This document shows positions 39,995 through 45,107 of a DNA stretch of 64,000 nucleotides, piece by piece. The stretch covers positions 62,001-126,000 of the forward strand of contig CACJMB010000001.1 in NCBI GenBank assembly GCA_902594405.1, read 5' to 3'. Within the stretch, counting starts at the first letter, position 1, and each line of letters begins with the position of its first letter. The translations under genes were made by a program, and so were the position numbers. The notes under the pieces are model-generated. The model was not told the origin of the DNA. It saw only the letters and a program-made list of their open reading frames with translations, and ran no database searches. Source of the stretch: an uncultured Pelagibacteraceae bacterium (GTDB lineage: Bacteria > Pseudomonadota > Alphaproteobacteria > Pelagibacterales > Pelagibacteraceae).

Positions 39995-41194
39995 ATGATT
40001 ATACAAAATTACATAGAAAAAATTGCAAAGTGTTCAAAACCTGCAGAAGGAGTTACCAGATTACCTTTTACTAAAGAACATAAATCTGCAAATAATCTTT
40101 TAAAGCAATGGATGAATGATGCTGGATTAAAAATAAGTTTGGATGCAGCAGGAACTTTAATTGGTAAATACGTCAGTCCTAAAAAAAATGCTAAAACATT
40201 ATTGATAGGTTCACACCAAGATAGTGGGTACAACTCTGGAAGATATGACGGTATTATGGGAGTGATACTTCCAATTTTAGCTTTAAAAGAATTAAAGAAA
40301 AAAAAAATTATTTTACCTTACAATGTAGAAATTTTAGCTTTTGCAGATGAAGAAGGTGTTAGGTTTCCAACAGCTTTAATGGGACCAAGATCATTAGCTG
40401 GAACATTTAATAAAAAAGATTTAAAACTTAAAGATAAAAATAATATTTCAATTGAACAAGCTTTAAAAAGTTTTGGATGTAACCCATCAAAAATTAATTC
40501 ATTAAAAAGAAACAAAAAAGATCTATTAGGTTTCTTCGAGGTTCATATTGAACAAGGACCAGTTCTAGAAAGTAAAAATTTAGCAGTTGGAATAGTTAAT
40601 GGTATTTCTGGAATATCTAGATTTAAACTTGAAATTGAGGGTTATGCTTCTCATGCAGGAACTACACCAATGCATCTTAGAAAAGACTCATTAGCAGCCA
40701 CCGCAGAGGTTATAAATACTGTAGAAAATTTAGCTAAAAAAAATAAAAACTTTTTAGCAACGATGGCATCAATTGAAAATAAACCAAATAGCGTAAATGC
40801 TATTTCTGCAAAATCTCTATCGTTTGTAGAATGTAGAAGCGTCGATGATAAAAAAAGAAAAAAAATAGAAAAAGAAATTTCCAAAAAAATTAGTGTAATT
40901 TGCAAGAAAAGAGGTCTTAAATTTATTTTAAATAAAACTTACGATCAAAGTGCTGTTAGTTGTGATAAGAAAATGATGAGCAAACTTAAAAAATCATTTC
41001 AGAATTTAAAACTAAATCCATTTGTATTAATGTCAGGAGCAACACACGATGCATCAGCAATGTCTGATTTATGTCCTATTTCAATGCTTTTTGTAAGAAG
41101 TCAAAAAGGTTTAAGTCATAACCCAAAAGAATTTACTATAGAAAAGGATATGCAGATAGCTGTAAAAGTTATTGAAAAATTTTTATTAGCATAA
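39995..41194 (+). CDS. M20 family amidase/hydantoinase-type carbamoylase (N-carbamoyl-L-amino acid hydrolase/allantoate amidohydrolase-like)
   Basis: A 399-residue metal-dependent amidohydrolase. Metal ligands are visible: His in GSHQDSGYNSG, Asp in YDGIMGV, Glu-Glu in FADEEGVRFP, His in FEVHIEQGPVLE and the final His in QKGLSHNPKEF. The dimerisation domain has the Gly-rich EGYASHAGTTPM box with its conserved His/Arg set. The family hydrolyses N-carbamoyl amino acids, allantoate and beta-ureidopropionate. Starts at the base after the DUF1028 stop. The actual substrate is probably what the divergent ABC transporter imports. Confidence 0.88.
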   Translation: MIIQNYIEKIAKCSKPAEGVTRLPFTKEHKSANNLLKQWMNDAGLKISLDAAGTLIGKYVSPKKNAKTLLIGSHQDSGYNSGRYDGIMGVILPILALKELKKKKIILPYNVEILAFADEEGVRFPTALMGPRSLAGTFNKKDLKLKDKNNISIEQALKSFGCNPSKINSLKRNKKDLLGFFEVHIEQGPVLESKNLAVGIVNGISGISRFKLEIEGYASHAGTTPMHLRKDSLAATAEVINTVENLAKKNKNFLATMASIENKPNSVNAISAKSLSFVECRSVDDKKRKKIEKEISKKISVICKKRGLKFILNKTYDQSAVSCDKKMMSKLKKSFQNLKLNPFVLMSGATHDASAMSDLCPISMLFVRSQKGLSHNPKEFTIEKDMQIAVKVIEKFLLA

Positions 41195-41235
41195 TTTTGT
41201 TTACGACAGTTTTGAAATAGAATAACGTCTCTTTA

Positions 41236-41379
41236 ATGAATTTAAACTTATCTACGCACCATCACAGACTTGCGAGAGTAGGTTTAAGTTCAAGACTTTC
41301 TTCAAAATTATTTAGTTTATTACTTCAAAAAGTAGACTGTAAAAATCATATAAATTCTTCAACACCCACGAAATTATAA
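41236..41379 (+). CDS. Possible 47-residue leader peptide with three consecutive His codons
   Basis: An ORF of 47 codons 42 bp before the dioxygenase gene. It encodes MNLNLSTHHHRLARVGLSSR and then a hydrophobic/basic stretch. The three His codons (41257-41265) fall in a predicted hairpin at 41245-41290. No clear ribosome-binding site precedes its ATG, and a TAGAAT box at 41218-41223 could be a -10 element giving a near-leaderless transcript. I know no family. It could be an attenuator leader, a small protein, or a chance ORF over a structured RNA. Confidence 0.35.
   Translation: MNLNLSTHHHRLARVGLSSRLSSKLFSLLLQKVDCKNHINSSTPTKL
41245..41290 (+). other. Predicted hairpin in the dioxygenase-cluster leader
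   Basis: Bases 41245-41249 pair with 41286-41290, and 41250-41254 with 41279-41283 (one T-G pair, 2-nt bulge on the right side). An inner CGCA/TGCG stem (41255-41258 with 41271-41274) closes a 12-nt loop. It overlaps the start of the 47-codon ORF. No known riboswitch class was matched. Confidence 0.4.
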
Positions 41380-41421
41380 TCACTTCTTTTTTTAAAAATT
41401 AATTTTATTGAAAGGAGAATT

Positions 41422-42264
41422 ATGGAAATAAAAAATATTGTTAACTTAAAAGATTACCCAATACATCAAACAGAATCAAAAGAGTATCAAGATTTAATTG
41501 CTAAAAATAGAAAGCTACTTGATAAAGACGGATGCTGTGTACTTCCAAAATTTGTACTTAGCGAATCTTTGAAAAGAATGAAGGAAGAAGTTGAAAGAAA
41601 TCTTCCTAAAACTCATTGGACCAAAGATCATCACAATCCATATTTTTCAAAAGATGATGAAAATTTATCTAAAGATCATCCAAAGAGAGTATTTTCATTT
41701 AGAGAAAGTGGATATATCAATTCAGATGATTTAGAAGAACAATCTGATTTAAATAAAATTTACGAGTCTGAAGAAATGTTAAAATTTATTTCAGATAGTT
41801 TAGGAGTTTTTCCTCTTTATAGATGGTCAGATCCTTTAGGTAAAAATCCATACAGTATCATGCATAAAGATCATTACTTTCCTTGGCACTTTGATGGAAA
41901 TGAATTTACTTTAAGTATTTTAGTTCAAAAAGCTGAAAAGGGTGGATTGTTTGAATATTCACCTGATTTAAGAAGCACTGAAAATGAAAACTTTGATGAA
42001 GTAACGAAAGTTCTTCGTGGCTCAAGAGATAAAGTTAAATCACTAGACCTTCAGCCAGGTGATCTTCAAATATTTAAAGGAAGATTTTCTATGCATAGAG
42101 TAACAAAAATAGAAGGAAATACTTCTCGTTACATTGCATTACCAACATACGTAAAAGACAATTACAGAGTAAATAAACCAGAACACTCTAAACAAGTTTA
42201 CGGTAAAGCACTTCCAATTCATTATGAGCGAAATAATGTTGAAGTAGATGGATTAATGGATTGA
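41422..42264 (+). CDS. Phytanoyl-CoA dioxygenase-like Fe(II)/2-oxoglutarate oxygenase
   Basis: A 280-residue PhyH-type oxygenase after a good ribosome-binding site (AAAGGAG). The metal pair H-x-D is in FPWHFDGNEFTLSI (about residue 153), and the distal His with its 2-oxoglutarate Arg in SMHRVTKIEGNTSRYIAL. Such enzymes hydroxylate diverse small molecules. It is first of four tightly packed genes with a beta-hydroxyacid dehydrogenase, class II aldolase and Fe-S flavoprotein, suggesting hydroxylation as the entry step to catabolism of an unknown compound. Confidence 0.83.
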   Translation: MEIKNIVNLKDYPIHQTESKEYQDLIAKNRKLLDKDGCCVLPKFVLSESLKRMKEEVERNLPKTHWTKDHHNPYFSKDDENLSKDHPKRVFSFRESGYINSDDLEEQSDLNKIYESEEMLKFISDSLGVFPLYRWSDPLGKNPYSIMHKDHYFPWHFDGNEFTLSILVQKAEKGGLFEYSPDLRSTENENFDEVTKVLRGSRDKVKSLDLQPGDLQIFKGRFSMHRVTKIEGNTSRYIALPTYVKDNYRVNKPEHSKQVYGKALPIHYERNNVEVDGLMD

Positions 42265-42265
42265 T

Positions 42266-43162
42266 ATGAAAATAGGTTTTATTGGTTTAGGAAATATGGG
42301 GATGCCAATGGCATTAAACTTACATAAATCTAAAAAAATAGATTTATTAGGTTACGATGTAAGCGCTAAATCTTTAAAACAATTTAAATCTAAAAAAGGT
42401 AAAGCAACAAATTCATTAGAAGAATTAATAAAGTTTTCTGATGTAATTATTACCTGTGTTCCTGGACCAAAACAAATTAAAGCATTATCAATTGGTAAAG
42501 ATAAAATCATAGATCAATTAGGTAACAATAAAATTTGGATTGATTGTTCTACCAATTCCTTAACCTGCTTTAATTGTTTAAAACAAAAGTTAAGTAAAAA
42601 AATAAATCAATTTGTAGATGCAACAATATCAGGTGGGAACTTAAAGGCTCAATCAGGGGATTTATCAATATTTATTGGTGGTAATAAAAAGACAGTTAAT
42701 AAGCTTAAGTTTGTCTTTAATATATTAGGTAAAAACATTTATTATCTAAATAAACCAGGTGCTGGTTATGCTGCTAAAATTGCACAAGTTAGCCTTTGTT
42801 ATTTAAACTATTTATCACTCTCAGAATCGTTGATGCTAGGAGTAAAGTCAGGGATTAAACCAAAAACAATGTTAGAGATCATCGATAAAAGTGCAAGTGG
42901 CGGTTATACATCAACAAGATACGGACCAAACATGATTAATGGAGATTATGATCCATCTTTCTTTTTAGGTTTATCGATGAAAGATCTAAATCTTGCTAAT
43001 GAAATTATAAAACTTCAAAAATTAAAACTACCAATAATGAATTTAACCTCAAAAATATATAACAAGGCTATTAAAAAATATGGATCAAATTCTAATCACT
43101 TAAAAGTGATTAAACTTTTAGAACAAAATAATAAATTAACTTTTTCAAAGGAGGGAATATGA
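42266..43162 (+). CDS. Beta-hydroxyacid dehydrogenase (3-hydroxyisobutyrate dehydrogenase family)
   Basis: A 298-residue dehydrogenase. N-terminal NAD motif IGFIGLGNMGMPMALNL, substrate motif FVDATISGGNLKAQSGDLSIF (the usual DAPVSGG here DATISGG), and catalytic Lys in GAGYAAKIAQVSLCY (typically G-x-x-K-x-x-N, with the Asn replaced by Gln-Val). The C-terminal all-helical domain ends with KDLNLANEI. Relatives act on 3-hydroxyisobutyrate, tartronate semialdehyde and four-carbon sugar acids (LtnD). One bp gap from the oxygenase; overlaps the aldolase gene by 4 nt. Confidence 0.83.
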   Translation: MKIGFIGLGNMGMPMALNLHKSKKIDLLGYDVSAKSLKQFKSKKGKATNSLEELIKFSDVIITCVPGPKQIKALSIGKDKIIDQLGNNKIWIDCSTNSLTCFNCLKQKLSKKINQFVDATISGGNLKAQSGDLSIFIGGNKKTVNKLKFVFNILGKNIYYLNKPGAGYAAKIAQVSLCYLNYLSLSESLMLGVKSGIKPKTMLEIIDKSASGGYTSTRYGPNMINGDYDPSFFLGLSMKDLNLANEIIKLQKLKLPIMNLTSKIYNKAIKKYGSNSNHLKVIKLLEQNNKLTFSKEGI

Positions 43163-43890
43163 AGAATAATATTAGTGAAGCAGATTGGAAAGTAAGAGTA
43201 GATCTTGCAGCCATGTTTAGATTAACCAACATGATGGGTTGGGATGATACGGTTTGGAACCATATCACTGCAAGAGCACCTGGAACAGATCATACATTTT
43301 TTATGCATGAGATGGGGTTGTTATATGAAGAAGTAAAAGCATCAAACTTAATTAAAGTTGATGAGCATGGTAAAGTATTAGAAGGACCTGAAAAGGCTAA
43401 TACTGCAGGTTTTATTATTCATAGTGCTATTCATCTAAATCATCCAAATGCTAAATTTGTCTTTCATGCACACCCTCCATCAGCATTAGCTGCAACTGCA
43501 TTGAAAGATGGTATCCCTCATTTAGTACAAGATAGTTCAATGCTTTATGGAAAAGTTGGTTATCATGAGTGGGAAGGGCTATCGATTAATAAAGATGAGA
43601 GAGTTAGAATTGCTGAAAACATGGGGGACAATAAGGTTTTGATTATGAAAAACCACGGCCTTCTTACTGTTGGTGCAACGGCAGGGGAAGCATTTATGAA
43701 CATGTATTATGCAATTAGAATGTGTGAAGTTGCAGTACAAGCAACTGGTTCAGGATTACCTCTTGAAAGAGCAACAGAAGAGATGTGGAAATTATCTCAA
43801 AAGCAATATGATTTATTTTCACCAGGTTTAAATGAGTGGCCAGCATTACTTAGAAGATGTGATGCAAAAGACCCATCATATAAAGAGTAA
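43159..43890 (+). CDS. Class II aldolase/adducin-domain protein
   Basis: A 243-residue class II aldolase. Zinc ligands are visible in FVFHAHPPSALA (H-x-H) and MKNHGLLTVG (third His), and GWDDTVWNHITARAP is the family opening (usually N-H-x-S-x-R). It lacks a sugar-phosphate kinase neighbour, unlike the threonate/erythronate pathways that pair LtnD-type dehydrogenase with a DUF1537 kinase and this aldolase type. It may cleave or decarboxylate an unphosphorylated beta-keto intermediate. ATG overlaps previous stop by 4 nt, and its stop overlaps the next ATG by one base. Confidence 0.85.
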   Translation: MKNNISEADWKVRVDLAAMFRLTNMMGWDDTVWNHITARAPGTDHTFFMHEMGLLYEEVKASNLIKVDEHGKVLEGPEKANTAGFIIHSAIHLNHPNAKFVFHAHPPSALAATALKDGIPHLVQDSSMLYGKVGYHEWEGLSINKDERVRIAENMGDNKVLIMKNHGLLTVGATAGEAFMNMYYAIRMCEVAVQATGSGLPLERATEEMWKLSQKQYDLFSPGLNEWPALLRRCDAKDPSYKE

Positions 43891-45107
43891 TGACAAAAAT
43901 TAATTCTTTAGATGATATTGTAAAGAATGGCCTTTGTATTGGCTGTGGTATTTGCAAAAGTATTGAAGGAAATTCTCTAGAAATGGAGATGAGCAACAAA
44001 GGTAATTTAGAACCTAAAGAATTAACACCAATTACTAATGATACTTTAGAAGAAATTAAAAAAGTTTGTCCTGGTGTTATTGCAGAAGGCCCTGAAGATC
44101 ATAAAGAAAATGAAGGATCTAATAAAGATATAGTTTGGGGAAATTATTTTGATTTATATTATTCTTGGTCTACTGATCCAAAGATAAGATTTCAAAGCTC
44201 AACAGGAGGTTTGTTAAATGGATTGTCTTTATATTTATTAGAACAAAAGAAAGTAGATTTTATAATGCATACGTCAGGGGATAAAGATAACCCTATGCGA
44301 AACATTGTAAAATACAGTTTTAATAAAGAGGACTTAATTAACTGTGAAAGTAGATCAAGATACGGTCCATCCTCACCACTAAGTGAATTTCATAAAGCTT
44401 TAGACAAAAAACAAACTTTTGCTTTTGTTGGGAAACCTTGTGATGCAGGAGCCATAAGATTACTTGCTAAATCAGATGAAAGAGTTGATCAGTATTGTAA
44501 ATATATATTCACTCTTGTTTGTGGAGGTTTTCAAGAACTTACAAAATCACAAGAATTCATTGATAGCTTTAATGTTAAGGAACAAGAGTTAGAAGAATTT
44601 AGATACAGAGGATTTGGTAACCCTGGAAGAATGTATATCAAAACAAAAGATCAAAGAGAGTTTGATAAAGATTATAATTCTTTTTGGGGTGATGAAAGTA
44701 ATTGGAAAGTTCCATTTAGATGTAAAATATGCCCCGATGCAATTGGAGAAAGTTCAGATATTGCAGCTCTAGATACTTGGAGAGGGGGTTCTCCTAAAGG
44801 AGAAGATGAAGGGTTTAATGCTGCAGTAATGCGAACTAAAAAAGGAATTAAAGTATTTAATGAAGCTGTTAAAAGTGGATACCTTGTTAAAGGAGACAAG
44901 GTTACTATTGAAGACATTAAAGATTTTCAACCTCATCAAACGAGTAAAAAACAAGCTGTTTATGCAAGACATCTTGGGATGAAAAATAATAATGTTCCAA
45001 CAATTAAAACTAAAAACCTTAGAATAGAAGAATTATACAAATTAAATGATATTGAATATAACAAACAACAAGAAAAAGGGATTAGTCAAAGATTAAATAA
45101 AAAATGA
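43890..45107 (+). CDS. FrhB-type Fe-S flavoprotein (coenzyme F420 hydrogenase/dehydrogenase beta-subunit family)
   Basis: A 405-residue protein with an N-terminal ferredoxin-like site (CIGCGICKS, about residues 17-23, and a later KKVCPG), the FrhB N-terminal block (RFQSSTGGLLNGLSLYLLE, AFVGKPCDAGAIR) and the C-terminal cluster box FRCKICPDAIGESSDIAALD. Members bind FAD and two 4Fe-4S clusters and pass electrons to F420, ferredoxin or other carriers. Alphaproteobacteria generally do not make F420, so a ferredoxin-linked or direct substrate oxidoreduction is more likely. Shares one base with the aldolase stop. Confidence 0.85.
   Translation: MTKINSLDDIVKNGLCIGCGICKSIEGNSLEMEMSNKGNLEPKELTPITNDTLEEIKKVCPGVIAEGPEDHKENEGSNKDIVWGNYFDLYYSWSTDPKIRFQSSTGGLLNGLSLYLLEQKKVDFIMHTSGDKDNPMRNIVKYSFNKEDLINCESRSRYGPSSPLSEFHKALDKKQTFAFVGKPCDAGAIRLLAKSDERVDQYCKYIFTLVCGGFQELTKSQEFIDSFNVKEQELEEFRYRGFGNPGRMYIKTKDQREFDKDYNSFWGDESNWKVPFRCKICPDAIGESSDIAALDTWRGGSPKGEDEGFNAAVMRTKKGIKVFNEAVKSGYLVKGDKVTIEDIKDFQPHQTSKKQAVYARHLGMKNNNVPTIKTKNLRIEELYKLNDIEYNKQQEKGISQRLNKK

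Follow-up and report, generated by a model that had tools for sequence, protein, structure and literature searches.

What does a 47-codon open reading frame (ORF) with a run of histidine codons do immediately upstream of a SAR11 operon? The ORF lies in a 64-kb stretch of DNA (64,000 nt, hereafter the window) from an uncultured Pelagibacteraceae bacterium. A sequence-only reading of the window had described three consecutive His codons in this ORF, a distance of 42 bp to the first gene of an operon that does not serve histidine biosynthesis, and a possible -10 box 12 bp ahead. Coordinates and codons (codons 8-10, CAC CAT CAC) were exactly as described, the gap between the leader TAA and the dioxygenase ATG was again 42 bp when re-measured, TAGAAT was found at the position of the box, and the operon consists of dioxygenase, dehydrogenase-like, aldolase and FrhB-like genes (Table 1). 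The length of the leader ORF by itself means little, because 58 ORFs of 40 aa or longer fall at least partly in the 36-52 kb region of the window.

Table 1. Features of the leader and its operon, in window coordinates.
Feature	Coordinates	Strand	Basis
TTTAC element, 5' to the -10 box	41200-41204	+	sequence comparison
-10-like box TAGAAT, 12 nt ahead of the leader start codon	41218-41223	+	
Leader ORF, 47 codons, ATG to TAA, no Shine-Dalgarno (SD) motif within 18 nt	41236-41379	+	sequence, ORF list, homologues
N-terminal hairpin described by the sequence-only reading	41237-41292	+	folding prediction
Hairpin from 4 nt past the leader stop, formed by anti-SD CUUCUUUU (41383-41390) and GAAAGGAG (41410-41417); hides the dioxygenase SD	41383-41417	+	
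Dioxygenase SD, AAGGAG, 4 nt before the ATG	41412-41417	+	
280-aa HalD-like (PF23169) Fe/2OG oxygenase; first of the operon's main genes	41422-42264	+	
3-Hydroxyisobutyrate-dehydrogenase-like oxidoreductase	42266-43162	+	
Class II aldolase family protein	43159-43890	+	
FrhB/FdhB-like protein	43890-45107	+	

Coding conservation of the leader ORF

Intact leader homologues of 47-49 aa were identified in 13 SAR11 genomes. A DNA-level search covering 297 order genomes yielded clear homologues in four of them besides the window's own, a profile search of 397 order genomes yielded five full-length copies (including the window) and one remnant, a profile search of 399 genus genomes yielded eight copies (including the window), and a contig scan yielded seven leader loci, three of which were equated with G116, G184 and G989. 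The 13 distinct copies are those of the window, G020, G026, G184/L059, G116/L057, G989/L056, L053, L054, L055, L058, G848, G859 and G927, with L059, L057 and L056 taken as the copies of G184, G116 and G989. The sequence-only reading had named lack of conservation of either frame or stem as grounds for dismissing its proposal; the frame was intact in all of these copies.

Among eight aligned leader peptides, identity to the window peptide was 55-89%, and M1, N2, N4, L5, H8, R11, L12, R14, V15, G16, L28-30, K32, C35, K36, N37, H38 and P44 were invariant. The C-terminus is variable after P44 (PTKL, PTKLEN, PSTSI), and the CKNH block ends at least nine codons ahead of the leader stop. The dN/dS ratio was 0.09 (G020-G026), 0.08 (window-G020) and 0.07 (window-G026) for the best-spaced pairs and 0.18-0.35 for more distant computable pairs, which involve G848 or G859; it was not computable for G020-G848 and G020-G859 (saturated) or for G927-G859 (no synonymous changes).

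In 11 of 12 pairwise tests, the probability of so few amino acid changes without a stop was at most 0.0005; the twelfth pair, with a one-base difference, is uninformative for such a test. An alignment across SAR11 had been suggested, with synonymous changes speaking for a peptide and paired changes for an RNA. For the peptide, the outcome was a protein-type substitution pattern in these 11 pairs. Because of this conservation, the leader ORF is more than a chance frame, and, judged by its substitutions, ORF 41236-41379 is genuinely coding and under selection. A chance origin would fit the abundance of short ORFs in such AT-rich DNA; the coding-conservation statistics and 13 homologues at the same position refute that explanation, whose probability we regard as negligible.

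In the genomes and records searched, occurrence of the leader did not extend beyond SAR11. In a class-level search of 385 genomes, the only convincing match was the window's own genome; six weak matches (best E 5.7e-4) were also returned, two of which were inspected and did not adjoin a dioxygenase. At 14 inspected sites of weak order-level similarity, G373 was the only true relative and the other 13 looked like unrelated frames. No leader relatives were found in viral contigs or phage records. In addition, five loci with related dioxygenases outside the SAR11 genus (L149-L153), which were inspected at length out of many more listed, contained no leader-like ORF, with blastp matches at chance level (best E 0.35). 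A wider phylogenetic range was thus rejected. Assignment to a known protein family was rejected as well: NCBIfam gave no match at E up to 10, and Pfam gave only Antiterm, for one of five members at E 0.16, which is meaningless.

Organization and exchange of the leader cassette

The HalD-like dioxygenase gene was directly downstream of the leader in all 13 intact copies found. Its HFD sequence in the window presumably represents a hydroxylase-type HxD motif. In the window and its near relatives, the dioxygenase is followed by 3-hydroxyisobutyrate-dehydrogenase-like, class II aldolase and FrhB-like genes in this order; in G859 and G927 the aldolase comes directly after the dioxygenase. Genes upstream of the leader vary among copies, and we take them to be an M20 hydrolase (window), a YajQ-like gene (L053-L058), another dioxygenase (G848, G859 and G927) and others (G020, G026 and L059). 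These differing neighbours indicate that the leader heads a mobile cassette.

A leader remnant was detected in G373 (L119, 4437-4475), in which the promoter and 13 codons are kept. These codons are followed by sequence that in L053 and L057 lies beyond the cassette, and the remnant appears to result from cassette deletion. Seven further FrhB loci were also inspected. One, in G848, is the other part of the leader operon, and another, in G849, has dioxygenase and aldolase genes without a leader; the stretches examined around the remaining five contained neither a second dioxygenase-aldolase pair nor a leader.

Two HalD-like dioxygenase paralogues, 52% identical, were present in one SAR11 genome (window 41422-42264 and G000:C4:4980-5816). 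The second kind of dioxygenase in L036, L038, L039, G848 and G876 comes after what is presumably a ProV-like transporter gene, a neighbour that hints at a betaine-like substrate. In addition, a Pseudomonas sp. MPC6 plasmid (L149) carries a 60% identical dioxygenase beside Xaa-Pro-peptidase-like and FrhB-like genes; LysR and GntR regulators are nearby, and no leader-like ORF is present.

The window leader (41236-41379) is itself a mosaic of two joined alleles, with a recombination breakpoint near nucleotide 75. Nucleotides 1-75 are G026-like at 13 of the 19 sites where G026 and G020 differ, and nucleotides 76-144 are G020-like at 14 of 16 such sites. Window-G020 identity rises from 69% to 96% at the breakpoint and is then 89-98% through the operon. 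As read from these alleles, the leader reading frame has survived allele exchange.

Because the whole peptide is under selection, it probably does something, either as a pace-setting nascent chain or as a small protein. The latter would be a functional product, such as a helper that binds metal or a partner of an enzyme, in which H8, H10, C35 and H38 may serve as ligands; its translation would be coupled to that of the dioxygenase for stoichiometry, with any regulation incidental. We consider it a serious, if rather unlikely, alternative. Conservation extends along the full length, beyond a stalling site, C35 and H38 are invariant, and the leader always sits in the same operon. However, the peptide does not diverge together with the dioxygenase: between G026 and the window the dioxygenase is 56% identical and the leader peptide 85%, which weighs against the peptide being dedicated to this enzyme as a partner. 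In addition, H10 is replaced by N in G859 and G927, the predicted structure, uninformative as a fold, is a single low-confidence helix (mean pLDDT 64, pTM 0.30; weak evidence, from eight sequences), neither NCBIfam nor, in any meaningful way, Pfam offers a relative, and the operon occurs without a leader in G849.

Predicted hairpins and access to the dioxygenase start

The sequence-only reading had placed the ORF inside a compact hairpin. A strong hairpin is indeed predicted at the 5' end (nucleotides 1-56; -17.3 kcal/mol, z -4.6), with the His codons in its loop, but it spans only the first third of the ORF, which is therefore not inside it. None of 500 synonymous recodings of nucleotides 1-60 folded as stably in the window, and likewise none in G848. 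As stable recodings numbered 202 of 500 in G026, 277 of 500 in G859 and 9 to 54 of 500 in the G020 group; the 5'-end hairpin (window 41237-41292; L112 of G848) beats all 500 recodings in these two lineages and no others. Across 11 sequences, base pairs of the window fold were kept as often as in shuffles (72.7% vs 72.1%), and covariation was also the same (0.125 vs 0.123). The N-terminal hairpin was rejected as a conserved functional RNA, being strong in the window and G848 only and showing no covariation. Membership of a known RNA family was likewise rejected, with no Rfam match at the gathering score or at E up to 1.

A structured RNA with an incidental reading frame, be it a riboswitch or a riboregulator, would fit the exceptional stability of this fold in the window and G848, but the strong protein-type substitution pattern, the lack of an Rfam match and covariation not above shuffles make it extremely improbable. 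Thus, of the new leader or riboregulator that had been envisaged, the coding leader ORF holds and a riboregulatory role is plausible, but the N-terminal hairpin as a functional RNA does not hold, and the paired changes that might have supported it did not exceed shuffles.

The resemblance to amino acid attenuation leaders, which had also been pointed out, did not survive comparison. In classical attenuation by His (or Cys/Arg) codons, stalling at the His codons under histidine starvation would switch two RNA folds. Three adjacent His codons are present in the window, G026 and G848, and every peptide has at least three His within its first 47 residues. However, the motif is HHH in only 3 of 13 peptides (HCH in eight and HHN in two), so that the run is broken in 10; no terminator-like site was found in 41100-41500; the operon genes are not those of histidine biosynthesis; the N-terminal hairpin is unconserved; and a ribosome stalled at codons 8-10 would be unable to reach the hairpin at the dioxygenase SD. 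His attenuation was rejected on the unconserved run and the lack of a terminator and his genes, and we judge it very improbable.

A -10-like hexamer precedes the leader ATG by 5-12 nt in all 10 sequences tested; in the nine other than the window it is TATAAT, TAGAAT or TATGAT at 11 nt or TATTAT at 5 nt. Among the 2089 ATG triplets of the window, which serve as a control, 59 have such a hexamer 5-13 nt ahead. None of the 10 sequences has an SD-like motif within the 18 nt that precede the leader ATG. Because of this box position and the missing SD, the leader mRNA is probably near-leaderless. Further upstream, the TTTAC element is invariant in the window, G020, G184, G116 and G026 and missing from G848 and G859/G927; we regard it as part of a promoter or operator.

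A second predicted hairpin, which begins 3-5 nt past the leader stop and pairs the dioxygenase SD, fits better than the N-terminal one. In local folds, predicted at 37 C, which is warmer than the sea, the mean unpaired probability of the SD was 0.00-0.01 in the window, G020, L053, L056, L057, L059 and G026, 0.22 in G848 and 0.58 in G859 and G927. These are 10 of the 13 copies, L054, L055 and L058 being left out. When the sequence before the SD was shuffled 200 times, values as low or lower were obtained 0-7 times in the window clade, 10 times in G026, 44 in G848, 102 in G859 and 98 in G927. The stem of G026 has a different sequence and the same effect; by lineage, the hairpin recurs in a second with this other stem, is weak in a third and is absent from a fourth. 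The G848 leader ends two codons later, and its weaker stem again begins 5 nt past the stop, which implies that the hairpin tracks the stop and not a fixed peptide residue.

A ribosome at the leader stop would cover about 10 nt past that codon. With the first 10 nt masked, the SD was unpaired at 0.59-0.95 in the seven hidden-SD sequences and at 0.55 in G848. By prediction, then, the SD is paired in a ribosome-openable hairpin in 7 of 10 sequences, partially so in G848 and not in G859 or G927. Compared to other SAR11 genes, the SD was unpaired at less than 0.015 in five leader-preceded dioxygenase alleles vs at least 0.22 in 10 other strong-SD genes, two of which look like alleles of one gene. 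These 15 rows were filtered for an ATG start, at least 150 aa, a strong SD core and distinct first 25 residues, and do not include the alleles of G848 (contig end) and G859/G927 (GTG start, weaker SD). No other short ORF in the 64-kb window combined a -10 box, the position and a hidden SD.

We consider it moderately probable that the leader is a conserved regulatory uORF, translationally coupled to the dioxygenase and carried on a mobile catabolic cassette. The coding selection, fixed position and promoter-like box are seen in the sequences, and the SD hairpin is supported by prediction and comparison; from these features we infer the coupling itself. Transcription would begin a few bases before the leader ATG, and ribosomes would load straight on the 5' end. 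The dioxygenase SD would be held in the hairpin just past the leader stop until a ribosome arriving there covers the anti-SD strand and exposes the SD, allowing dioxygenase translation. Output of the first enzyme of the operon would then depend on ribosomes traversing the conserved peptide or pausing where it ends. Against this coupled uORF, the SD is exposed in G859/G927 and only partly hidden in G848, the dioxygenase-aldolase pair of G849 has no leader, and selection on the whole peptide exceeds what coupling alone requires.

More speculatively, the nascent peptide (H8, R11-L12, R14-V15-G16 and C35-K36-N37-H38) might modulate this passage in response to metabolite or charged-tRNA levels. In a specific form of this idea, which we think clearly unlikely, the peptide would be a SAR11-specific nascent-peptide sensor: still in the ribosome, it would bind a compound consumed or produced by the dioxygenase pathway, pause the ribosome at the leader end and thereby open the dioxygenase start.

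Relation to known leaders and implications

As a kind, the leader is known, since SAR11 uORFs have already been described. Stav et al. 2019 (PMC6429828) reported 11 uORFs in HIMB5, a strain of SAR11, each a presumed regulator of the gene that follows. Like the present leader, these are conserved short ORFs in SAR11 intergenic regions and predicted regulators of the adjacent downstream gene; unlike in the present case, dioxygenases and histidine do not come up in the main text of that report (PMC6429828). The window leader may already be among the 11 HIMB5 uORFs. Literature searches returned no report of this peptide, its association with the dioxygenase, the mosaic structure or the hidden-SD design.

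Several better-known leaders, as they are generally described, share parts of this arrangement. The systems ermC, secM and mifM likewise have a short ORF and a hairpin that hides the SD of the main gene and is opened by a ribosome near the leader end. However, the SAR11 leader has no signal sequence or drug-resistance context, its hairpin stays next to the stop codon in copies with an altered peptide end, and the likeness is one of predicted hairpin, not of arrest. TnaC (tryptophan) and SpeFL (ornithine) are also conserved leader peptides before catabolic operons, but the SAR11 leader shows no clearly conserved C-terminal arrest residues at the stop, and the comparison involves neither sequence relation nor ligand. 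With hisL-type attenuators, the SAR11 leader shares a short ORF containing neighbouring His codons, from which type it differs in its unconserved run and in having neither a terminator nor his genes. The leaderless Cys leader peptides of actinobacteria are similar as short, near-leaderless ORFs before metabolic genes, with a loose H..LARV resemblance; unlike these, the SAR11 leader has no Cys run and no NCBIfam match.

SAR11 bacteria dominate the surface oceans and have few transcription regulators. If the coupled uORF is real, a self-contained switch travelling together with a catabolic cassette would be a way in which such genomes can control newly acquired pathways, and it could point to the substrate of the HalD-like oxygenase operon. 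If the sensor reading were also true, a genome with few transcription factors would carry its own inducible switch on a mobile cassette.
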